Below are positions 8,075 through 22,110 of a stretch of 22,110 nucleotides of DNA, piece after piece; the stretch's first letter is position 1; each line of letters starts with the position of its first letter. The translations under genes were made by a program, and so were the position numbers. The stretch is from a virus. The stretch covers positions 1-22,110 of the IMG/VR virus record IMGVR_UViG_3300020172_002308, one strand, 5' to 3'. The notes under the pieces were generated by a model that had not been told where the DNA came from, searched no databases, and worked only from the letters and a program-made list of their open reading frames with translations.

Positions 8075-8424
8075 GTCGTAATGTCGCCAACAACTACCCA
8101 AGTATTACTTGTCACTTTTATAAGACTACATGCCCCTAATGCGACTCTTATTTGTGGAGTTGCTCCAGATGATGATGTAATAGTTAATCCGCCTGGGGCA
8201 GTATTAAAAATAACATTTGAATTTGCTCTAATAAAATCAAATTGAGATCCTATTGGCAGTGCATTACTGACAGCAATCGGAATGGTTATATACAATGCGG
8301 TTGAATTATTACAGTAGTATATTGAACTACTTTCATTAGATGCAATTGCTATGTTTGCTGTTGCATTTATAACTCTTTGAGCTTTATCTTGACCTCTTAA
8401 TGGGTAGTAATTTATTCCAGACAT
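8071..8424 (-). CDS. Tail-fibre C-terminal-domain-like protein (117 aa)
   Basis: A 117-aa protein that corresponds to the C-terminal domain of the preceding 439-aa fibre: LPIGSQFDFIRANSNVIF matches FPIGTSIDILQVGAGQTTI, and the ends NTWVVVGDITT and NTWVAIGDLSA align. It lacks the attachment N-terminus, so it is a detached receptor-binding or tip domain, perhaps binding the larger fibre or alternative partner. It starts 24 bases after the fibre stop with AAAGG too far upstream to be strong, and its TGA overlaps the next start (ATGA at 8071-8074). Confidence 0.75.
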   Translation of the reverse strand: MSGINYYPLRGQDKAQRVINATANIAIASNESSSIYYCNNSTALYITIPIAVSNALPIGSQFDFIRANSNVIFNTAPGGLTITSSSGATPQIRVALGACSLIKVTSNTWVVVGDITT

Positions 8425-12302: not shown

Positions 12303-12833
12303 TTATGCTCCTGGTTTTGGAATAGCTTTCCAAGCTGCTTCCATTTTTGCAGCATCTTCAGCAACTTCTTTTTCAAATTCTAGATGCAACCACTGGCCTC
12401 CAAAAGACCCGGCATTCTCTTTTTCATTATAGACCTTTACCCCAGCCATACCTTCACCTCTTGAGCAACGGTAACCTCTTCCATAGCCAGGCTTTCCATC
12501 TTTAGCGTTTGAATCAAATGCATAATCATGAATCTCTACAATTCCTAATTCTTTCGTATGAGTAATGAACCACTCCCACATAGCAAGACCAGTCTTACGA
12601 TCTGGATAGCCGATATCGCAAGCAGCACCCGTTGCATGAACGGACAGCCATTTCTCCATTCCTGGATCTCCAATTTTCTTACCTGCTGTATGAGAATTTC
12701 TCATCAATCTTGGAGAATAGATCCCCATATTTGTTGCCTTCCATCTACGACCACAAGCCATGACGAACCATTCAACGCCAGCGCCTGCCTTTTTTCCGTC
12801 AAAAGCGGGATAATATGGATATTTCCTGGGCAT
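12303..12833 (-). CDS. Endolysin, M15-type peptidase (D-Ala-D-Ala carboxypeptidase/L-Ala-D-Glu endopeptidase-like)
   Basis: A 176-aa peptidoglycan peptidase that would cut the host cell wall at the end of infection. The zinc-binding signature of peptidase family M15 is visible: SVHATGAACDIGY gives S-x-H-x-x-G-x-A-x-D with His66 and Asp73, and GGQWLHLEF supplies the third ligand His150. An EIHDY segment near residue 100 lies where a catalytic acidic region is expected. No signal peptide or separate wall-binding domain is seen, so it relies on a holin. Length fits single-domain M15 endolysins. ATG 12833 overlaps the upstream holin stop. Start codon and motif order are unambiguous; the exact bond cleaved cannot be told from sequence. 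Confidence 0.88.
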   Translation of the reverse strand: MPRKYPYYPAFDGKKAGAGVEWFVMACGRRWKATNMGIYSPRLMRNSHTAGKKIGDPGMEKWLSVHATGAACDIGYPDRKTGLAMWEWFITHTKELGIVEIHDYAFDSNAKDGKPGYGRGYRCSRGEGMAGVKVYNEKENAGSFGGQWLHLEFEKEVAEDAAKMEAAWKAIPKPGA

Positions 12834-13030
12834 TACTTACCTGAACCCTTACCAAAAGCAGTATCCTTTGGATTCAAATAACGCATAATTACTGGCAATG
12901 CCGCAGCCCAAAGAGCATTCAGCGCCAACTTCCAATCCTGTGTTGCTGCATATGTAGATACACCTGCACCCAAAACGCTTCTTCCATATGAGGCGAGCAA
13001 AGCCTTGTTGTTTTCAAAAATCTTATTCAT
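12833..13030 (-). CDS. Putative holin adjacent to endolysin (65 aa)
   Basis: A 65-aa protein starting MNKIFENNKALLASYGRSVL. The start at 13030 is chosen over an upstream in-frame ATG (13057) because AAAGGAGAG lies three to four bases before it. There is an amphipathic N-terminal segment, a hydrophobic stretch from about residue 30 to 50 (LALNALWAAALPVIMRYL) and a basic, Gly-rich tail. This resembles small holins encoded directly before endolysins in actinophages. Its TAA overlaps the endolysin ATG (TAATG at 12833), so holin and endolysin are translationally coupled, as expected for a lysis pair. Only one clear transmembrane helix is visible, though GRSVLGAGVSTYAA may be a second. Confidence 0.72.
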   Translation of the reverse strand: MNKIFENNKALLASYGRSVLGAGVSTYAATQDWKLALNALWAAALPVIMRYLNPKDTAFGKGSGK

Positions 13031-13072
13031 AGACTCTCCTTTGTGATCAAATATCACTAATTACATTATACA

Positions 13073-13321
13073 TTAGTCTGCTTCATCAGGCTTACTTTTT
13101 GCTTTGCTAAAGATTGACTGTATTTCATTATCAGAAAGTTTTCCATCATCAAGAAAGGCATTAGCAAGCCCCTCAACGACTTTTGCGACTCCACCAATTC
13201 CAGCCATAAAAATAGCCTTTGGCAAACTAACGCCAGCAACAGCGCCTGCGCCAATAACCCCAAGACCAGATGCTCCAAAAACAGCTAAGATCCTAAGTAA
13301 GATATTTTTTGTAGTGCTCAT
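13073..13321 (-). CDS. Holin-like small membrane protein with EF-hand-like C-terminus
   Basis: An 82-aa protein with two hydrophobic segments, about residues 11-31 (ILAVFGASGLGVIGAGAVAG) and 33-57 (LPKAIFMAGIGG onward), followed by the acidic LDDGKLSDNEIQSIF. That last part looks like one EF-hand calcium loop or a degenerate copy of it. Small size, two membrane segments and a charged tail fit a class II holin, which permits the endolysin to reach the cell wall. The start has AAGGAG four bases upstream of ATG 13321. It lies just after the exported 545-aa gene and 42 bases before the next membrane-protein gene. It is one of three holin candidates here, so its role as holin, antiholin or something else is undecided. 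Confidence 0.75.
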   Translation of the reverse strand: MSTTKNILLRILAVFGASGLGVIGAGAVAGVSLPKAIFMAGIGGVAKVVEGLANAFLDDGKLSDNEIQSIFSKAKSKPDEAD

Positions 13322-13329
13322 TTTACTCC

Positions 13330-14967
13330 TTATTCATCATTTTTAGCCATTACGCTTAGGTAATGGATTAAGAATGCAATCGATGTTGCAATCAATGTAA
13401 TCTTTCTTGTGTCCCCAGAAAGAGTTGCAAAAACAATAACTGTGCTAGATATTGTGAATGCAAGGGCAGCAGTTTCTCTGCTGAATTTTTTAATGAAATT
13501 CCATATACTAAATTTCTTCATTCCTTCCTCCGTGTATTTAAAAATACTATTTCTTGTAAAGTCACCATCATCTCCTCCCTCTGGGCCTTCGATTTCTGGT
13601 GCCTCCTCTTCCTCTTCAGACTCCTCCTCATCCTTTTTAAAATGAGAATTTGGTCCACCGCCATTATTGTTATTTGAATTCCCTCCAGATGGCGTAGGAG
13701 AGCCACTAGAGCCTCCTACAACCGTTATTGCAGATACAGCGCCCATTGCTGCTAAAAGTGTTCTGCGGTTTTTAACACTTATTTCAGAACCAACGGGAAC
13801 ATATTCATCAAACCCTTCTGCATAGATATTTATTTCGCCCTCAAATGCTTCTTTAACTTCATCTGGTGCATTTTGAACAGCCTCTATAATTTCACCCTTT
13901 TCTTCTTCAGTAATTGTGGATGTATCAATAGCATTAAAAACTTCTTGTGCGTCTTCTTTACTTATTTCCTCCAAGACCTCTGGAGAAGTAGCAACATCTA
14001 CAGCCTGATCTGGCGTAATTTCTTCAGTAATAACTGCTGGCAATGTAGTTGTTGTAGGTGGAATAGTTGTTGTAGACGATGTTGTTGTGGTTGTCGTAGT
14101 TGTTGGTGCAACCGTTGTCGTGGTAGTCGTTGTTGTGGTCGTTGTTACCAATGGCAATTGAAAAAACAAAGTTGTTGTGGTTACTGGTACGGTTGTAGTC
14201 GTTGGGGGCAATGTCGTTGTTGTTGTAGTTGTGGTAGTTGTTGGTAGCGTCAAACCAATGACTTCATTGCTCCAGCCAGAATAAACCGAAAGTGAGTCAT
14301 TGTCAGCTCTTACTTTAAATTTGCATGACTGATCAGATTCAAGGTTTTCAATAATTGCAGATGTTGTTGTTGATGAAATAGCAAAACCAGACTCCCAGTT
14401 GTTGCATGACCAAAATATGGCATAACGCTCAACCTCTACATTTGACTGTTCTGGTGCAGTCCAAGATAGATACACCTTGCTTTCATTTGTTGATGTAACC
14501 TCAAGATTTTGCGGGTTATTTAGATATGGTGCAATAGTGGTAGTTGTTGTAGTAGTTGTCGTGGTAGTTGTAGTCTGATTTGATATTAAAGATGTTGATG
14601 TTTCAAAAGAATAACTCTGTCCATACCATCTGTTTGGATCACCACAGCAAACACCTGTTCTTAAACGATATGTGCCAGGTTGTAGATTAATGGATATATT
14701 TGAATCAAGACCATAATAGTCATCATTTGCAGTTAAGACATTATCCTGAGAGTCATAGAGCCATAGCATTGAGTCGATACCATACTGCTGAGCATAGGTA
14801 CGAACGGTAAAATTTTGAGGCTCATCAAAAGTAAAGTAAAAGTCATTTGCCCCAGATGTTGCATAGTTATCAGCCTTAACAGGGCTTGAAATAAACGATG
14901 TGAGAATAGAAATAAAGCAGACAATAAATAACGGAATAGAACCTTTTCTTAATCTTAACTTTCTCAC
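13330..14967 (-). CDS. Exported, membrane-anchored protein with PPC-like domain, FN3 domain and poly-Thr linkers
   Basis: A 545-aa protein of unknown function with a clear export layout. Residues 1-32 are a signal peptide (basic MRKLRLRK, hydrophobic core, SSPVKA cleavage). About 36-130 resemble a pre-peptidase C-terminal-like beta domain (MLWLYDSQDNVL, LQPGTYRLR). Residue 132-144 is a Thr run; 150-239 is a fibronectin type III domain with an SWTAPE strand and two cysteines; 242-309 is a Thr/Pro linker. An acidic helical region (313-380), a hydrophobic RRTLLAAMG segment (401-419), a Ser/Gly/Asn stretch, an acidic patch (446-470) and two membrane helices (about 499-517 and 523-541) follow. GTG is the only start that retains the signal peptide; a stop lies two codons upstream. 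Such poly-Thr linkers are typical of actinobacterial surface proteins, so host origin is likely. It sits directly before the lysis genes. Confidence 0.85.
   Translation of the reverse strand: MRKLRLRKGSIPLFIVCFISILTSFISSPVKADNYATSGANDFYFTFDEPQNFTVRTYAQQYGIDSMLWLYDSQDNVLTANDDYYGLDSNISINLQPGTYRLRTGVCCGDPNRWYGQSYSFETSTSLISNQTTTTTTTTTTTTTIAPYLNNPQNLEVTSTNESKVYLSWTAPEQSNVEVERYAIFWSCNNWESGFAISSTTTSAIIENLESDQSCKFKVRADNDSLSVYSGWSNEVIGLTLPTTTTTTTTTTLPPTTTTVPVTTTTLFFQLPLVTTTTTTTTTTTVAPTTTTTTTTSSTTTIPPTTTTLPAVITEEITPDQAVDVATSPEVLEEISKEDAQEVFNAIDTSTITEEEKGEIIEAVQNAPDEVKEAFEGEINIYAEGFDEYVPVGSEISVKNRRTLLAAMGAVSAITVVGGSSGSPTPSGGNSNNNNGGGPNSHFKKDEEESEEEEEAPEIEGPEGGDDGDFTRNSIFKYTEEGMKKFSIWNFIKKFSRETAALAFTISSTVIVFATLSGDTRKITLIATSIAFLIHYLSVMAKNDE
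14041..14244 (-). repeat. Long Thr/Pro-coding low-complexity repeat
   Basis: Residues about 242-309 of the exported protein are nearly all Thr with Pro, Val and Leu interruptions (for example TTTTLPPTTTTVPVTTTT). Tandem ACN codons give a GTTGTTGTC-like pattern on the plus strand. This is the longer of two such linkers in the gene and is prone to length variation. It would span roughly 68 residues between FN3 and the acidic helical region. Confidence 0.8.
14536..14574 (-). repeat. Trinucleotide ACN repeat encoding a 13-Thr run
   Basis: Tandem ACA/ACT/ACC codons encode residues 132-144 of the exported protein. The run separates the first beta domain from the FN3 domain and is an extended, probably rigid or glycosylatable linker. 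Mixed codons show the repeat is kept at protein level rather than being a pure nucleotide slippage tract. Confidence 0.8.
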
Positions 14968-14973
14968 ATATTA

Positions 14974-14979
14974 ATAATA
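14974..14979 (-). promoter_or_regulatory. Possible -10 element for a leaderless transcript of the 545-aa gene
   Basis: The minus strand reads TATTAT, then six bases, then the GTG start codon at 14967. There is no Shine-Dalgarno sequence in the gap. This spacing would place the transcription start at the GTG itself, the arrangement of leaderless mRNAs that are common in actinobacteria. No convincing -35 is seen, and the gap is AT-rich, so the call is tentative. Confidence 0.3.
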
Positions 14980-16371: not shown

Positions 16372-16407
16372 AAATAATAGATTACCACATATGTTTAAAT
16401 AATGCGA

Positions 16408-16437
16408 GAAGGGAGAGGGTATTTCACCTCTCCCTTC
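16408..16437. terminator. Perfect 11-bp hairpin behind the capsid gene, terminator-like on the plus strand
   Basis: GAAGGGAGAGG (16408-16418) pairs perfectly with CCTCTCCCTTC (16427-16437) around an 8-base loop. On the plus strand it is followed after three bases by T8 (16441-16448), the form of an intrinsic terminator for plus-strand transcripts. For the capsid mRNA (minus strand) the hairpin comes after an A8 tract and is followed only by TCGCATTATTTAA, so termination would be partial at best. It may stabilise the capsid mRNA 3' end or act in both directions. The functional direction is unresolved. Confidence 0.6.
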
Positions 16438-16459
16438 CCATTTTTTTTGATATTAAATA

Positions 16460-17491
16460 TTAGAGGCTGCGAAGCTTAACATTCTTGCCGATTACATAAG
16501 AATCGGCATTTTCAATGTTAGAACCAACACGCATAAATTGAGTATATTCAATTGTGTCTGTCTTTGGCTTGAACTGACGGTAAACAGTAATGTCACGGTG
16601 GATACCGATGATACGGTTATTTGGGAATGTCAATTCAACATGACCATGAGAACCAGTGGTTCCAGAATAGTCACCAGCTGCTGCTTCAGGCATAAGTGGA
16701 ACTTCAATCAGTGGAATACCAAATGGTGCAATACCAGTTGAACCTGCTCCACCATTTCCTCTCATTGAACCTTGCAAGAACGCCATTTCACCAACTTGTG
16801 ACATTGGTGCTGGTGCGCCTGCTGTTGCAGCGGTTGCCGAGTTTGGATTTCCAAGTGAGTAAATCGTATCTTGCACCATTCCCGAACCAGTGAAGAATCT
16901 CAACTCATTTCTGCGCTGGAGATACTTTGTTGGAAGGTTGCGGAGGATACGGTCATATGTAGCGCGGGAAACTTGGTTTCCTGCCTCATCTACTGTACGA
17001 CCATTTGCCTTTGCAAGCTTGATAAACCCATCAAGTGCCTTAATAAGACCATTGTTGGATGAGGTGTTACCATTGATGAACAAATCGTCAAGGTCGTTGG
17101 CTGTCTGACGAGCCATAACCTGTGCGATATGATCTTCAAGGGATGCGCCCTCAATGTTGTCCTCAAGGGACTCTGTTGATACAGACCAGTCAAGACGCAA
17201 CTTAACGGTGCTGATAGAGACCTTGCTGAATGTTACTGGGGCATTTGCGCCAGTGTCGGTTGCCTCAGTTGCCTTTGCAAGCAAACGGGTTCCGACAGAA
17301 ACCTTATCGATTTCCATTTGTGGTGTACGCATACGAACGACTCTTGCGTTCTGCATAAGTACGGACTGATCAATTACGTAGTCAAGGAAGCGGTTAGACT
17401 GTGCTGGCTTTAACAAACCACCAGAATCATTGCCAACAACGCTCGTTGTAACTTCATCAGCCTTTGAAAGAATTTCTTCTTGAGATGCCAT
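16460..17491 (-). CDS. Major capsid protein, HK97 fold
   Basis: A 343-aa major capsid protein that builds the icosahedral shell. Features of the HK97-fold family are an N-terminal helical arm, the LDYVIDQSVLMQNARVVRMR segment leading to the E-loop region, the DLDDLFINGNTSS spine-helix region near residues 130-145, and the C-terminal RIIGIHRDITVYRQFKPKTDTIEYTQFMRVGSNI P-domain strands. There is no long N-terminal delta domain, consistent with a separately supplied scaffold. The start ATG 17491 has AGGAGG ten bases upstream, which fits a highly expressed product. It follows the protease by 18 bases and is followed by an 88-base gap with a strong hairpin. Confidence 0.93.
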   Translation of the reverse strand: MASQEEILSKADEVTTSVVGNDSGGLLKPAQSNRFLDYVIDQSVLMQNARVVRMRTPQMEIDKVSVGTRLLAKATEATDTGANAPVTFSKVSISTVKLRLDWSVSTESLEDNIEGASLEDHIAQVMARQTANDLDDLFINGNTSSNNGLIKALDGFIKLAKANGRTVDEAGNQVSRATYDRILRNLPTKYLQRRNELRFFTGSGMVQDTIYSLGNPNSATAATAGAPAPMSQVGEMAFLQGSMRGNGGAGSTGIAPFGIPLIEVPLMPEAAAGDYSGTTGSHGHVELTFPNNRIIGIHRDITVYRQFKPKTDTIEYTQFMRVGSNIENADSYVIGKNVKLRSL

Positions 17492-17509: not shown

Positions 17510-17866
17510 TCATGACTTATAGCCCAGTGCTTTAATCAAGCCCTGTGGCAAATACATATTTCCCCAAATTGAATCAGACTTGGTGAGTTCTTCCTCATCC
17601 TCATCTGCATCTTCTGGGTCAACACTCTTTTTGATTGCGCCTGCCTCGGCAAAAGCCTTGACCTGCTCCTCTTGCTCGGAAAGTGCCTTTTCAGCAGCTT
17701 CCAGTTTTTCTTGAAGTTCAACCGTGTTGGCTTCAAAACTCTTTGTGATATTGTCGATCTTTTCGTTCAGCGAAGCCTCAACCTCTTCTTTAATAGAAGT
17801 AGCGAAGTTAGCCAGTTTGTCATCAACCACAGCACTAAGAGCGTCTTTAAGGACTTCAATATCCAT
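17510..17866 (-). CDS. Putative capsid scaffold made from an internal start inside the protease gene
   Basis: In frame with the protease, codon 406 is an ATG preceded by a perfect AGGAGG with 5 bases between (17872-17877), the strongest ribosome binding site in this gene. Initiation there would give a 118-aa acidic coiled-coil protein starting MDIEVLKDALSAVVDD and ending with the same C-terminus as the long product. This matches the known arrangement in phage lambda, where the scaffold Nu3 is made from an internal start in the protease gene C. The conserved DIEVLKDAL start and the helical content fit a scaffold. Production as a separate protein is inference. A second, weaker candidate is ATG 18088 (AAGGAG nine bases upstream), whose purines may simply reflect Lys/Glu codons. 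Confidence 0.5.
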   Translation of the reverse strand: MDIEVLKDALSAVVDDKLANFATSIKEEVEASLNEKIDNITKSFEANTVELQEKLEAAEKALSEQEEQVKAFAEAGAIKKSVDPEDADEDEEELTKSDSIWGNMYLPQGLIKALGYKS

Positions 17867-19081
17867 ATCTTCCTCCTGTGTGTATTCAGTAACTTCAACT
17901 GTATTATCTGTTGAAGCATTCTCTTGAACATCTGGAACAAGCCAATTGACAAGTCGCTTTAAAAGCGATAATCTATTTATTTCTTGTTCATTCATGTCTA
18001 AGACCTTATCATAGTTTACATCATTTTGCAATGATTCTTCTTGCGTTTTAATGATTTCTAACTCGTCTTCAAATTTCTTTGAATCCATTTCTTCTTTCTC
18101 CTTTTTCTTTTTAGGATGTGTAGGTGTAGCAAATCTATTTCCTTGTTCTGGATTTTTGATTCCAGAACCCATTCCAGTAGTAGTTACTTCTCCCTCTTTT
18201 TCCATATCTGTTTGAACAGATTTCTTTTTAGTATTCTCATATCTTTCAAGGAGTCTTCTGCCTTTTGCAGCAAGTTCCGCAGCATCTTGCATATTTTGCG
18301 GAACAGGCTCTCCCCATGCTGCAGCCGAAAGAGCAAGCCTAGTTGGGTCTCCATTTGGCTTCTTCATAGGACCAGATGGATTTGTAAAAAATCTTGTTAA
18401 AAAAGAACCTTTTCTACGCATTTTTTCTGGGGTATCTGCTGCACCTTTAACACCCGGCTTAAGATTTGCGCCCTCTGTCTGCTTAAAATGCCTACGACCA
18501 GCGGCAGTTAGTCCACCTTTTGGATCTTTCAAAGGCTGTTTCGCCTTTTCAAAATCAATTCCATCTATAACATCAAGAATGTAATCAAGATTTCCATCAG
18601 TATCCATTTTGATAATATCAACAATTGCTAGAGCATTAGCGGGGTTATCTACCAAACTTAATTCACCCAATGAATATTCTTTAATAATCTTTACTGGTCG
18701 ACCTCTAAACATTTTTTCTGTAGATTCAACTTTTTGCATAATTTTTCCACCAATTGAAAAAGCTTTAAGAGTTCCATCAAGAACTTTTTCCCAAGTGCTT
18801 TCAGCACCTTTTGAAATATAAGCATCAACTTTAATTGCATTATACTTCTTTCCATCTTCACCAGTTATTTCTACTGGTTCATAGTTGATTGCTTTTCCAA
18901 CAGCAATCGGTGCATGCATTTCTCTAATGTTTCCGCCCCAGTTTTTAAAAGCATCAAGAGATGCAGCAAATTCAACAAGATCACCAGACTTGTCAATATT
19001 ATCAGCAGTAGCAATACCGCTTACAATTCTTTCCTCTTTCTTGATTAAATCAATGGGGAAAGATAAATTAAAATTTTCCAT
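17510..19081 (-). CDS. Prohead maturation protease (XkdF/U35-like) fused to a central basic module and a C-terminal scaffold
   Basis: A 523-aa protein with three parts. Residues 1 to about 165 match the phage prohead protease fold: SGIATADNIDKSGDLVEF start, then REMHAPIAVGKA with candidate catalytic His56 and LKAFSIGGKI with candidate nucleophile Ser109. This enzyme cleaves the scaffold and capsid precursors during head maturation. Residues about 188-275 form a separate basic module (LTAAGRRHFKQTEG, MRRKGSFLTRFFTNPSGP, GDPTRLALSAAAWGEP). Residues about 330-523 are acidic and coiled-coil, typical of a scaffold, ending in GLIKALGYKS. The length far exceeds a stand-alone protease (about 180-220 aa), supporting fusion. 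Start ATG 19081 follows GAGGG. The next gene is the capsid, 18 bases away. An internal start at 17866 probably also produces the scaffold alone. Confidence 0.88.
   Translation of the reverse strand: MENFNLSFPIDLIKKEERIVSGIATADNIDKSGDLVEFAASLDAFKNWGGNIREMHAPIAVGKAINYEPVEITGEDGKKYNAIKVDAYISKGAESTWEKVLDGTLKAFSIGGKIMQKVESTEKMFRGRPVKIIKEYSLGELSLVDNPANALAIVDIIKMDTDGNLDYILDVIDGIDFEKAKQPLKDPKGGLTAAGRRHFKQTEGANLKPGVKGAADTPEKMRRKGSFLTRFFTNPSGPMKKPNGDPTRLALSAAAWGEPVPQNMQDAAELAAKGRRLLERYENTKKKSVQTDMEKEGEVTTTGMGSGIKNPEQGNRFATPTHPKKKKEKEEMDSKKFEDELEIIKTQEESLQNDVNYDKVLDMNEQEINRLSLLKRLVNWLVPDVQENASTDNTVEVTEYTQEEDMDIEVLKDALSAVVDDKLANFATSIKEEVEASLNEKIDNITKSFEANTVELQEKLEAAEKALSEQEEQVKAFAEAGAIKKSVDPEDADEDEEELTKSDSIWGNMYLPQGLIKALGYKS
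17872..17877 (-). promoter_or_regulatory. Strong internal Shine-Dalgarno site (AGGAGG) within the protease gene
   Basis: The minus strand reads AGGAGG at this position, five bases before an in-frame ATG (17866). It lies deep inside a coding region rather than at a gene junction, which makes it the deciding evidence for a separate scaffold product. The encoded residues here are QEE, which do not require a perfect consensus. Confidence 0.5.
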
Positions 19082-19123: not shown

Positions 19124-19390
19124 TTAACCAAAAGCCATTACAGCGATTGTTACACCAGATGTAATTACTTCAAACTTTGTATAGTCACCATAAAGCTCAA
19201 CATAACCAGCATTACCCTCGGCGGTTGATGGAATTAAAACCCTTAATGGACCACCATTAACTTGAACAACAGCATCTGTTACATTGTTGGAATTATAAAA
19301 TTTAATAGAAGATGTATGTCTTCCGATACTTACTTCTCCGTCAGCACTTGTGACTGCGGTATCTGAATAAACTAAAGTTTGCTCACTCAT
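19124..19390 (-). CDS. Small beta-rich protein between portal and protease, putative virion protein
   Basis: An 88-aa protein predicted to be almost entirely beta strand, with no signal peptide, cysteine or membrane helix. It overlaps the portal stop by 8 bases and has a good ribosome binding site (GGAG followed by AAAATA before ATG). I do not recognise the family. Segments such as SIKFYNSNNVTDAVVQVNGG resemble small beta-sandwich decoration proteins, and the product is similar in style to the 110-aa protein further downstream (IKTINICNTSNAAVTCDVHI). Head decoration or spike function is inference from size, composition and position between portal and protease. Confidence 0.72.
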   Translation of the reverse strand: MSEQTLVYSDTAVTSADGEVSIGRHTSSIKFYNSNNVTDAVVQVNGGPLRVLIPSTAEGNAGYVELYGDYTKFEVITSGVTIAVMAFG

Positions 19391-21017
19391 TATTTTCTCC
19401 TTCGAATACCTTGACGGTATCTACATTATCGCCAGAATCTTGACTCTGACCTCTTTCTTTTTGGTCTCCAGAACCCTGAACCCCCGTAGGTGTTGAGCCT
19501 GCATCAGACCTAGACTTTGGCGGAATTGAAGCAGCGTTGTTTGAATTGCCAACTGGTGCTCCAGCTCCTTCTTTTTTAACATTGGTTGGGAATGGAAGAA
19601 CATCGTCACCATTTTTACGTTCAGGAAGGCCAACCTTACCTCTAACTTCATTTGGCGACATAACTTCTGTTCTAAGATATCTATCATAGATTCTTGATTC
19701 CATTTCTTCATCCATGAGATCAATTTTCTTTAATTTAAATTGCAAAAGATCTGTGAATTCAGAAACAATTCTGTTTATCTTTTTTTCAATAACAGCTTGA
19801 TCTGGACCAATAACTTGCATTTTAAATGTTTTGTCAGCATCTCTTGAAACAGCAAGGTTTGCATTATCGTAAACTCCGACTTTTGGAGCAGGAACTCTGT
19901 TTGCGACCAAAATCTCATCACGGTTTGATTTACGGTATTTATCGAATGATGCATCTTGCACTCCAGCTTCTAACTTTTCAAACTTAATATCAGTATCAGA
20001 ACCGACAGATGCAGGAATCGGGATAATCAAGGTTCCATGATTACGACCTTTAACTTCATTTCTAAAGTAATTTACAAGTTCTTGTTTTGATCTTTGACTA
20101 ATCTTTGCACCTTTTAGAATGATTGCGTAACGAGGAATTGCCTTATTTTCAAAATAATCAATATTGTATTCTTTAGCAAACTTATCTCCTACAATCGCAG
20201 CAGCAGCAGATACAGCAGATGGAATTCCATAGTATGTGTGATTTGGAGAATACATTTTAAAATGAATAATTTCATTTGGATTTGGGTCCATGTTGATAGG
20301 ATCTGCTGTTTCAGTATCTTGAAAGTTTCTGAAGAATACGGCTTGAATTTTGTTACTTCTTGAAATCTGAACAAAACCATCGCGCTTTCTTCTTACGCGC
20401 ACCATTGTTCCAGGAATATGACCAATATAACCTATTTTTCCAGCATTATTTCTACCGATTTCCAAATAGCCATTGCCAATAGTGAGAACATCTTGCCAAA
20501 CTCTAACCAGAGTTTCAATAAGCGTTTCTTCAACATTCAAATCTTCAAATGTTTCATCAAGTTCTTCTTTTAGATCTTGTAACTGCCTTCTTGTTCTATC
20601 AAGCTTTGAAGGCTCTTGCTGCGCTCTTTCAATCTTTCTTTTGGCTTTTAATGTCTCAGTAAATTCAAAACCAAGACCAACTGTGTTCATAACTCTTGCA
20701 TTAATTGCTGCATAGTGGATTGCGCTTTGATCATAAAGATGAGCCAAATTATCTAAATCGTATGGCGGATTAATAATATCCCATAAAGAATAACCATTAA
20801 CAACCAATGGATCAACATATTTTGTTGAAGTTCCATCTTCACCTTCGTACTTTTTCTGAAGGCGGTTAGCTCTTCTTTTCATCTTTGGGGATAATGTGTC
20901 TATTTTTACATTAAGAAAAGGATCATTAATCTTCTTTTCTGTTACAAATTCATTATATGAAATATCGTCTAGTTCAAATGAATTGTTGTCATCTTCTACA
21001 ACTTCCATTTTTTGCAT
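19383..21017 (-). CDS. Phage portal protein (PBSX/HK97-like)
   Basis: A 544-aa portal protein, which forms the dodecameric ring at one capsid vertex through which DNA enters and leaves and on which the connector assembles. Family-like segments include the NPPYDLDNLAHLYDQSAIHYAAINA stretch near residues 60-90, an IPGTMVRVRR beta segment, INMDPNPNEIIHFKMYSPNHTYYGIPSA and DYFENKAIPRYAIILKGAKIS in the clip/wing region, and a helical stem reaching VMSPNEVRGKVGLPER. The last ~70 residues are a Ser/Gly/Asn/Asp-rich low-complexity tail. Start is ATG at 21017, overlapping the upstream TAA; a second in-frame ATG lies three codons later. Its 3' end overlaps the next gene by 8 bases. Placement just before the protease and capsid genes is standard. 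Confidence 0.92.
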   Translation of the reverse strand: MQKMEVVEDDNNSFELDDISYNEFVTEKKINDPFLNVKIDTLSPKMKRRANRLQKKYEGEDGTSTKYVDPLVVNGYSLWDIINPPYDLDNLAHLYDQSAIHYAAINARVMNTVGLGFEFTETLKAKRKIERAQQEPSKLDRTRRQLQDLKEELDETFEDLNVEETLIETLVRVWQDVLTIGNGYLEIGRNNAGKIGYIGHIPGTMVRVRRKRDGFVQISRSNKIQAVFFRNFQDTETADPINMDPNPNEIIHFKMYSPNHTYYGIPSAVSAAAAIVGDKFAKEYNIDYFENKAIPRYAIILKGAKISQRSKQELVNYFRNEVKGRNHGTLIIPIPASVGSDTDIKFEKLEAGVQDASFDKYRKSNRDEILVANRVPAPKVGVYDNANLAVSRDADKTFKMQVIGPDQAVIEKKINRIVSEFTDLLQFKLKKIDLMDEEMESRIYDRYLRTEVMSPNEVRGKVGLPERKNGDDVLPFPTNVKKEGAGAPVGNSNNAASIPPKSRSDAGSTPTGVQGSGDQKERGQSQDSGDNVDTVKVFEGENNE

Positions 21018-21419: not shown

Positions 21420-22110
21420 TTATGACTTTAGATTGTCAGTAATAAGTTTGATTTCACAAGAATCTGACGTACAGTATGACTCTCCTACAGCATCAGCAGC
21501 CATTCCTGCATACACACCTGCAAAGTCAATTGGGAATAATTTCATTAACCCATCTTCGGTATATTCCTCTTCAGTTATTTGAGTATAAGGCATTTGTGGA
21601 TATGTAAAGTTTCCTTGTGGAAGGAAAGATACTGTCTTTAACTGTCCATCATACATGTGCAAGACAGTTCCGATATAATCCTTTTCTGTCTCAGAATCAA
21701 ATGAAATAGTTACAGAAACAGAATTATCCGACCAATATCTTTGTGCTACTGATGCAATTGCCATCTTTTCAAAGATTGTTACATCTTTTTCTGATCTTTT
21801 AGCATCTGACTTAATTGGAAAAAATACAACACTTGTTGTGTCTGGTGACTCAGATGCTGGCTCTACACGATAATTTGCCATTCTGAATAGCGGAAGCATC
21901 GGGTCATCATTGGCAAATCGAATTGCACGAAGGAAGTACTCACCACCGGGAGTCCAGTGAACTCCAGGAGATTCTCCAGCCAAAATTGAAACTGTTCCAG
22001 ATGGCTTAACCGTTGTCATCTTGATTGATTCACGAATACCAAACCATTCAGAATAAATATTGTCATATCTCTTTACAGTTTCATATCCACTATCCATCCA
22101 TTCACGAAGA
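21420..22110 (-). CDS. Adenosylcobalamin-dependent ribonucleoside-triphosphate reductase (class II), C-terminal part, 5' truncated by window edge
   Basis: This enzyme reduces ribonucleotides to deoxyribonucleotides using a coenzyme B12-derived radical, supplying dNTPs for phage DNA replication. The frame stays open past the first Met of this fragment to the window edge (residues LREW precede MDSGYE), so only the C-terminal ~229 residues are seen. Recognisable family segments are the KPSGTVSILAGESPGVHWTPGG substrate/active-site region in shortened view (KPSGT...PGVHW), the GGEYFLRAIRFAN stretch, the QRYWSDNSVS stretch and a C-terminal CTSDSC. The last motif has the five-residue Cys spacing of the shuttle cysteine pair of the Lactobacillus RTPR, which relays electrons from thioredoxin. 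Both cysteines are present, so the visible part looks functional. It lies 61 bases upstream of the pre-portal gene on the same strand. Catalytic cysteines of the main barrel and the B12-binding region lie outside the window. Confidence 0.9.
   Translation of the reverse strand, partial: LREWMDSGYETVKRYDNIYSEWFGIRESIKMTTVKPSGTVSILAGESPGVHWTPGGEYFLRAIRFANDDPMLPLFRMANYRVEPASESPDTTSVVFFPIKSDAKRSEKDVTIFEKMAIASVAQRYWSDNSVSVTISFDSETEKDYIGTVLHMYDGQLKTVSFLPQGNFTYPQMPYTQITEEEYTEDGLMKLFPIDFAGVYAGMAADAVGESYCTSDSCEIKLITDNLKS

Follow-up and report, generated by a model that had tools for sequence, protein, structure and literature searches.

A phage protein family with a predicted surface-display architecture: conserved membrane anchor, hairpin partner and exchanged heads

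We identified a protein of 545 amino acids encoded in a virus record of IMG/VR (IMGVR_UViG_3300020172_002308, 22,110 nt; the whole of this stretch is called the window here) as a member of a family in which the stalk and the membrane anchor are conserved and the heads are swapped, even between phages with near-identical capsids. The family, i.e. the combination of a stalk module and a TLSG hairpin, is defined in this analysis, and the window protein shows its features: a signal peptide, a Thr linker, a YVPxGS membrane-proximal module and a TLSG hairpin, fused or adjacent. We are highly confident in the architecture as described below. As to its function, our best explanation is a lectin-like display protein on the infected cell which would alter adsorption, either by superinfection exclusion or by masking of the phage's own receptor, with a probability of roughly 45%.

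The gene, its neighbours and its expression signal

The open reading frame at 13330-14967 is a real gene, as chance is excluded by its conservation across hundreds of contigs. A first scan of IMG/VR gave 60 relatives of the protein, the closest being 90% identical, and the relatives in this database number in the hundreds: a search of viral contigs with the C-terminal module resulted in at least 545 confirmed stretches, near-copies included. The following genes and signal of the window are considered.

19383-21017, minus strand: portal gene, upstream, assigned by reading the sequence
17510-19081, minus strand: protease/scaffold gene, upstream, assigned by reading the sequence
16460-17491, minus strand: capsid gene, upstream (Pfam PF05065)
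14974-14979, minus strand: putative -10 element TATTAT, at -12 to -7 of the GTG (TANNNT conserved in the clade; no Shine-Dalgarno)
13330-14967, minus strand: surface-protein gene, 545 amino acids, GTG start (open reading frame and homologous IMG/VR family)
13073-13321, minus strand: hydrophobic protein of 82 amino acids (phrog_26427, 7.7e-21; weak match to the holin phrog_443, 0.032)
12833-13057, minus strand: small hydrophobic protein of 74 amino acids (reading frame kept throughout the clade)
12303-12833, minus strand: M15-like endolysin (SVHATGxxxD...WLHxE motif by reading; homologue in relative L038)

Small virion-type proteins are also encoded upstream on the minus strand (Gp80-like, Pfam). 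Downstream, the surface-protein gene is followed by the two small hydrophobic proteins, the M15-like endolysin and fibre-type genes, which contradicts the claim of a preliminary description of this DNA that every neighbour builds the virion. The neighbouring 82-residue protein is possibly holin-like, based on a weak match; the label "nuclease" of phrog_26427 looks wrong for a protein this short and this hydrophobic. The window endolysin shows no Pfam match of its own, and its homologue in L038 has PG_binding_1 and PHROG endolysin matches. Elsewhere in the window, a strong terminator-like stem of 14 pairs lies between the capsid gene and the next minus-strand gene (16405-16440), and the C-terminal part of a ribonucleotide reductase, class II by reading, adjoins the structural genes (21420-22109).

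Of the 18 distinct upstream regions in the window clade, 17 carry TANNNT at precisely -12 to -7, these rows being related and hence not 17 independent events; the letters in and around the motif vary, and none of the same regions shows a Shine-Dalgarno sequence. By comparison, 1.9% of positions drawn at random from the window fit TANNNT, and a Shine-Dalgarno sequence precedes most other window genes. Other lineages do not share the signal as a rule (14/82). These patterns suggest that the surface-protein gene is probably transcribed from a separate promoter into a leaderless mRNA, as is common in Actinobacteria. The gene lies among late phage genes; given this expression signal, it is probably not simply part of the structural operon in which it had been placed. 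A fibre-type gene at window position 8424 shows TATAAT at -12 to -7 of its ATG, the same spacing as in the surface-protein gene, and is possibly a second leaderless or separately promoted gene.

Domain architecture and the hairpin partner

The protein is composed of the following parts.

14872-14967, minus strand: signal peptide, residues 1-32, cleavage site VKA/D (Ala32 nearly invariant)
14584-14871, minus strand: PPC-like beta-sandwich head, residues 33-128 (AlphaFold; Pfam PPC in relatives)
14524-14577, minus strand: Thr linker 1, residues 131-148, 72% Thr
14254-14517, minus strand: FN3 domain, residues 151-238 (Pfam fn3; SUEL lectin instead in the near relative L003)
14029-14247, minus strand: Thr/Pro linker 2, residues 241-313, 60% Thr
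13780-14025, minus strand: acidic helical membrane-proximal stalk module, residues 315-396, ending YVPVGSEIS (alignment and AlphaFold helices)
13720-13776, minus strand: likely membrane helix 1, residues 398-416, weakly hydrophobic (AlphaFold helix 398-414 and hydropathy)
13495-13719, minus strand: predicted cytosolic acidic linker, residues 417-491, with FTRNSIFKY motif (net charge -11 over residues 424-492)
13333-13494, minus strand: membrane hairpin of two helices, residues 492-545, containing TLSG (encoded separately in most relatives)

The signal peptide, built from a basic n-region, a hydrophobic core and the cleavage site, is called by a simple heuristic in 80 of 81 complete N-termini. 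Residues 33-128 form a confident AlphaFold beta-sandwich (block pLDDT about 84-96) which contains a conserved CCGDPNRW motif. The Pfam profile PPC (PF04151) has no match in this region of the window protein; it matches 5 of 59 family members (best 2.8e-6), and in relative L006 it reaches 7.6e-5 with 23.9 bits, below the cut-off of 25.9, so that we read the head as PPC-like by family evidence. The FN3 domain is matched by Pfam fn3 (PF00041) at residues 151-224 (34.5 bits against a cut-off of 25, E 2.4e-8). In the stalk, the helical part (residues 319-378) is predicted with pLDDT > 90, and YVPVGSEISVKNRR comes after these helices and ahead of the helix 398-414 in the AlphaFold model.

The signal peptide, PPC-like domain, FN3 domain, two Thr-rich linkers and acidic helical part named in the preliminary description were all confirmed, the PPC-like domain by its fold and by Pfam in relatives though not in the window protein. 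Of its two C-terminal membrane helices, described as the anchor, the hairpin (AlphaFold helices 497-517 and 520-543) is recovered, but a third, weaker helix at 398-416 had been missed and the hairpin is a separate gene in most relatives. That the protein would be exported, membrane-anchored and displayed on the surface is supported by these predicted features.

Neither the NCBIfam scan nor the PHROG scan gave a match for the window protein, the large protein being covered by no PHROG; PADLOC gave no credible match, and Foldseek against the PDB generic FN3-type matches only. PDB profile matches look like low-complexity chance similarity, and the matches of Pfam Glycos_trans_3N, GatB and RskA_N in the stalk, short, helical and mostly sub-threshold, were disregarded. 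A second fold, predicted for the C-terminal part from 8 sequences, was discarded for its low confidence (pLDDT 50.5).

Helix 1 is less hydrophobic than the hairpin helices on the Kyte-Doolittle scale, with 1.64 versus 1.86-1.91 in the window protein and family means of 1.63 versus 2.00, and its insertion into the membrane is likely but marginal. We read it as a membrane helix because the basic N-side of the hairpin points to the inside, the charge distribution fitting an N-in/C-in topology, and an exported ectodomain needs one earlier crossing.

The last 55 residues of the window protein correspond to a separate gene of about 55-65 amino acids directly downstream in most relatives, and in these split forms the coupled junctions TAATG and ATGA are common at the stop of the large gene. 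In L025, the large protein ends with FTRNSIFKYLED, a motif also present in the window linker, and the hairpin gene begins 2 bases past the stop. Among 95 distinct proteins with the C-terminal module, the hairpin is fused in 16 and encoded directly downstream in 74; three of the remaining five are cut by the contig end, and the other two (L050, L055) encode the hairpin in their DNA, where it was missed by the ORF caller. A search in the opposite direction, begun with the hairpin, gave at least 600 stretches (at least 547 confirmed), of which 80 loci were kept, 76 with room upstream. The stalk module is directly upstream or fused in 75 of these 76; in the last, L212, it lies about 1.1 kb upstream, the gene of an LPXTG protein being inserted between module and hairpin. 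The TLSG motif is shared by all 21 hairpins that were aligned. Hairpin proteins encoded by a separate gene match phrog_29041 (best 2.6e-15), and the PHROG scan of the hairpin gave no holin match. One lineage (L044 7059-7472, L046 6972-7385, L051 6648-7061) has a hairpin with about 80 additional N-terminal residues (137 in total) and a large protein with a different membrane-proximal end sequence.

Exchanged heads, hosts and chromosomal homologues

The heads of 59 members were assigned by Pfam to fn3 (11), PA14 (9), PPC (5), LCCL (3), legume-type lectin (2; best 1e-40) and SUEL lectin (2), and a structure search of viral proteins found uncultured phage proteins annotated as PA14, SUEL lectin and FN3. 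A comparison of capsids resulted in 20 distinct relatives with a capsid at least 85% identical to that of the window; in 18 of these the head is PPC (41-89% identical), in the other 2 it is PA14, and the middle domain is FN3, SUEL or absent. The replacement of PPC by PA14 occurs in phages with capsids 97% (L121) and 87% identical to that of the window. The window protein and that of L003 agree in the PPC head (85%) and in the stalk (75%), and L003 has a SUEL_Lectin domain (1.6e-9) in place of FN3. We take head exchange on a kept anchor as the main sign that the head would meet something variable outside. BLAST clustering of the N-terminal regions placed everything in one group and was dropped.

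In seven relatives, a further surface protein, with a sorting signal of LPXTG type, is encoded (L072 6851-8137, L084 6568-7998, L097 7349-8917, L175 4006-5451, L201 5700-7184, L211 3982-5571, L212 2812-4002). In most of these, which are located downstream of the hairpin, the head is conserved (GGPIVLDGMDPVCHSG) and accompanied by a Big_1-like Ig domain; the protein of L212 has a different head, resembling that of the family protein in L133. Downstream of the pair in L026 (7769-10193) lie a glycosyltransferase-like gene, based on a weak Pfam match, and genes read as dioxygenase-like and methyltransferase-like, which perhaps serve surface or DNA modification. The only named phage with the protein is DSL-LC01, a metagenome-assembled record in which it is annotated as hypothetical protein, and we found no relative in a cultured isolate.

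The gene whiB, regarded as an actinophage marker (PMC10202952), is present in 16 of 28 relatives' records. This supports actinobacterial hosts, from the records of the relatives rather than from the window itself, and, via these relatives, a reading of the window as a virus of freshwater actinobacteria. Phages have hardly been brought into culture from this group, which ranks among the most abundant bacteria of lakes (PMC10202952).

With a narrower alignment, the C-terminal module was found in two named Actinobacteria MAGs; within the Actinomycetota class to which these belong, it is carried by 7 of 395 genomes, and a phylum-wide draw of 397 genomes contained only two carriers, both among the same ones. 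The chromosomal loci are flanked by metabolic and housekeeping genes (relatives of groEL, guaB and tsaD, names by reading), with synteny between L137, L138 and L146. The hairpin is fused or adjacent in every chromosomal copy placed on the tree, and the heads scanned are DUF4082, RCC1-like or DUF285 repeats. A block of RCC1-like repeats distinguishes the heads of the syntenic copies L137 (6858-8747) and L138 (5739-8747), suggesting that head exchange takes place in chromosomes as well. The N-terminal PPC head has no relative in 84,980 bacterial and archaeal species.

These data agree with the actinobacterial-type architecture suggested previously, since the C-terminal module and the hairpin occur in chromosomal surface proteins. 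The same set is also carried by other phages, often near endolysin genes; the heads scanned in the chromosomal proteins differ from those of the phages. Capture from a host, as proposed, would be one of two possible directions of transfer between phage and chromosome, the root of our quick tree being arbitrary. In this tree, six of the chromosomal copies cluster together (SH-aLRT 98) beside fused phage forms, and the seventh copy, L149, is placed elsewhere on a long branch.

Possible function, rival explanations and known systems

The main reading would work as follows. The signal peptide would export the protein, export, topology and leaderless expression being the strongly inferred part of the model, and Thr-rich stalks, possibly glycosylated, would hold the PPC-like and FN3 head off the membrane. 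The C-terminal module, i.e. the helical stalk and the weak helix, may pack with the two-helix TLSG hairpin, which would be supplied as a translationally coupled partner or, as in the window, fused behind an acidic cytosolic linker. The heads, subject to rapid exchange, may bind envelope glycans and thereby cover receptor glycans, so that adsorption to the cell's own receptor would be blocked. Superinfecting phages would thus be kept out and, near lysis, progeny would be kept from sticking to debris, comparable to what is proposed for T5 Llp, a well-studied protein of this kind; such exclusion proteins avert secondary infection and non-productive adsorption to fragments of lysed cells (PMC9586334). 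In 27 of 49 distinct loci, an endolysin gene follows downstream at no more than 3.5 kb (22 had neither of the two types searched), a proximity which suits late expression. Several points speak against this reading: PPC, PA14, FN3 and LCCL domains are not always sugar binders, membrane helix 1 is weakly hydrophobic, none of the relatives comes from a cultured isolate, and, judging by the chromosomal copies, the module is not confined to phage roles.

Among the roles proposed in the preliminary description, lectin-type heads would favour a block of superinfection or adhesion, and a role in release is disfavoured because chromosomal copies occur without lysins. Adhesion, in which the heads stick infected cells to neighbours or particles and progeny are freed beside new hosts, is a serious rival to an adsorption block, albeit a rather unlikely one. 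It would account for the lectin-type heads, for the nearby second LPXTG-anchored surface protein of several relatives, most with a Big_1-like Ig domain, and for the resemblance of the chromosomal homologues to ordinary surface proteins; however, the hosts are thought to be planktonic, and the LPXTG companion is absent at most loci read. The hairpin could instead be a class II-type holin whose ectodomain senses or regulates lysis, as in T4 lysis inhibition, considering its two short helices with predicted N-in/C-in topology and charged tail, the endolysin often next door (27/49) and the order in L043 of surface protein, hairpin and M15-like endolysin. A lysis role becomes less likely, and in our view improbable, because the hairpin tracks the surface protein and not the endolysin (22/49 loci without either type searched) and exists, fused or adjacent, in chromosomes amid metabolic genes without lysin; moreover, it has no PHROG holin match, and other small hydrophobic proteins adjoin the window endolysin.

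Chromosomal homologues with the same anchor and hairpin would also fit a moron, i.e. a captured host surface protein which benefits the host cell, for instance in glycan foraging or protection from grazers, and has no adsorption role. Against this, the complete chromosomal copies scanned have heads (DUF4082, RCC1-like, DUF285) unlike those of the phages, diversity in phages is far above that in chromosomes, and the window gene is placed among late phage genes; we regard this explanation as improbable, too. Finally, the Ig- and lectin-like domains could be a decoration of capsid or tail, in which case the signal peptide and the membrane helices would have been misread. FN3 domains are common in virion proteins, the gene lies between head-type and fibre genes, and Foldseek matches phage minor tail proteins, but a signal peptide kept in 80/81, an obligate membrane hairpin, the lack of any PHROG match and chromosomal homologues outside prophages make this highly improbable. 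A regular-expression search for downstream fibre genes (9/49) was too crude and was not used.

Returning to a display protein which would alter adsorption, we tentatively suggest a model according to which phages of freshwater actinobacteria may possess a dedicated display system, composed of an anchor module with an obligate three-helix membrane base and of interchangeable lectin-type heads, and shared with some Actinomycetota chromosomes. Phages would compete by re-coating their host, and the system would be a widespread Gram-positive-type counterpart of lipoprotein exclusion with swappable specificity. The rigid anchor and partner, the fast head exchange and the presence in hundreds of viral contigs suggest strong selection on the surface of the infected cell. 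If receptor masking were true, mutual exclusion among phages in nature could be predicted from the head type. The family, now annotated as hypothetical protein, could be named by its conserved anchor and hairpin.

Several known systems resemble parts of this family. Like T5 Llp and Cor (PMC9586334), the protein is phage-encoded, predicted to be exported and would act at the envelope on receptor availability, and those proteins are proposed to avoid re-infection and adsorption to debris; we claim no sequence relation, the likeness being an analogy. The window protein differs in being large and modular, with a transmembrane anchor and a hairpin partner, lectin-type heads and actinobacterial hosts, and its cleavage site, without Cys, contains no lipobox. 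With LPXTG sortase-anchored proteins the family shares a signal peptide, an adhesive head, a Thr/Pro stalk and, in split forms, a C-terminal hydrophobic helix with a basic tail; instead of LPXTG it has the YVPxGSxIxV..RR module and the obligate TLSG hairpin. The window protein, whose C-terminus is SVMAKNDE, contains no LPXTG motif, which occurs only in neighbouring genes of some relatives. Class II holins resemble the hairpin in having two short membrane helices and often a nearby endolysin gene, whereas the hairpin always accompanies the surface protein and also exists in chromosomes without lysin. The protein also does not fit the virion or tail-fibre class, showing no structural PHROG match and a conserved export signal and membrane hairpin. 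A likeness in organisation is also seen with the Actinomycetota chromosomal proteins (L137, L138, L146-L150), which have the stalk module, the membrane helix and the TLSG hairpin, fused or adjacent, and differ in their scanned heads, DUF4082, RCC1-like or DUF285 versus PPC, PA14 or lectin; phrog_29041, to which no function is assigned, is common to the separate hairpin proteins. We found no description of the family in the open-access literature. Phage-encoded surface proteins are already known as a kind; the set of anchor, partner and heads described here is new.
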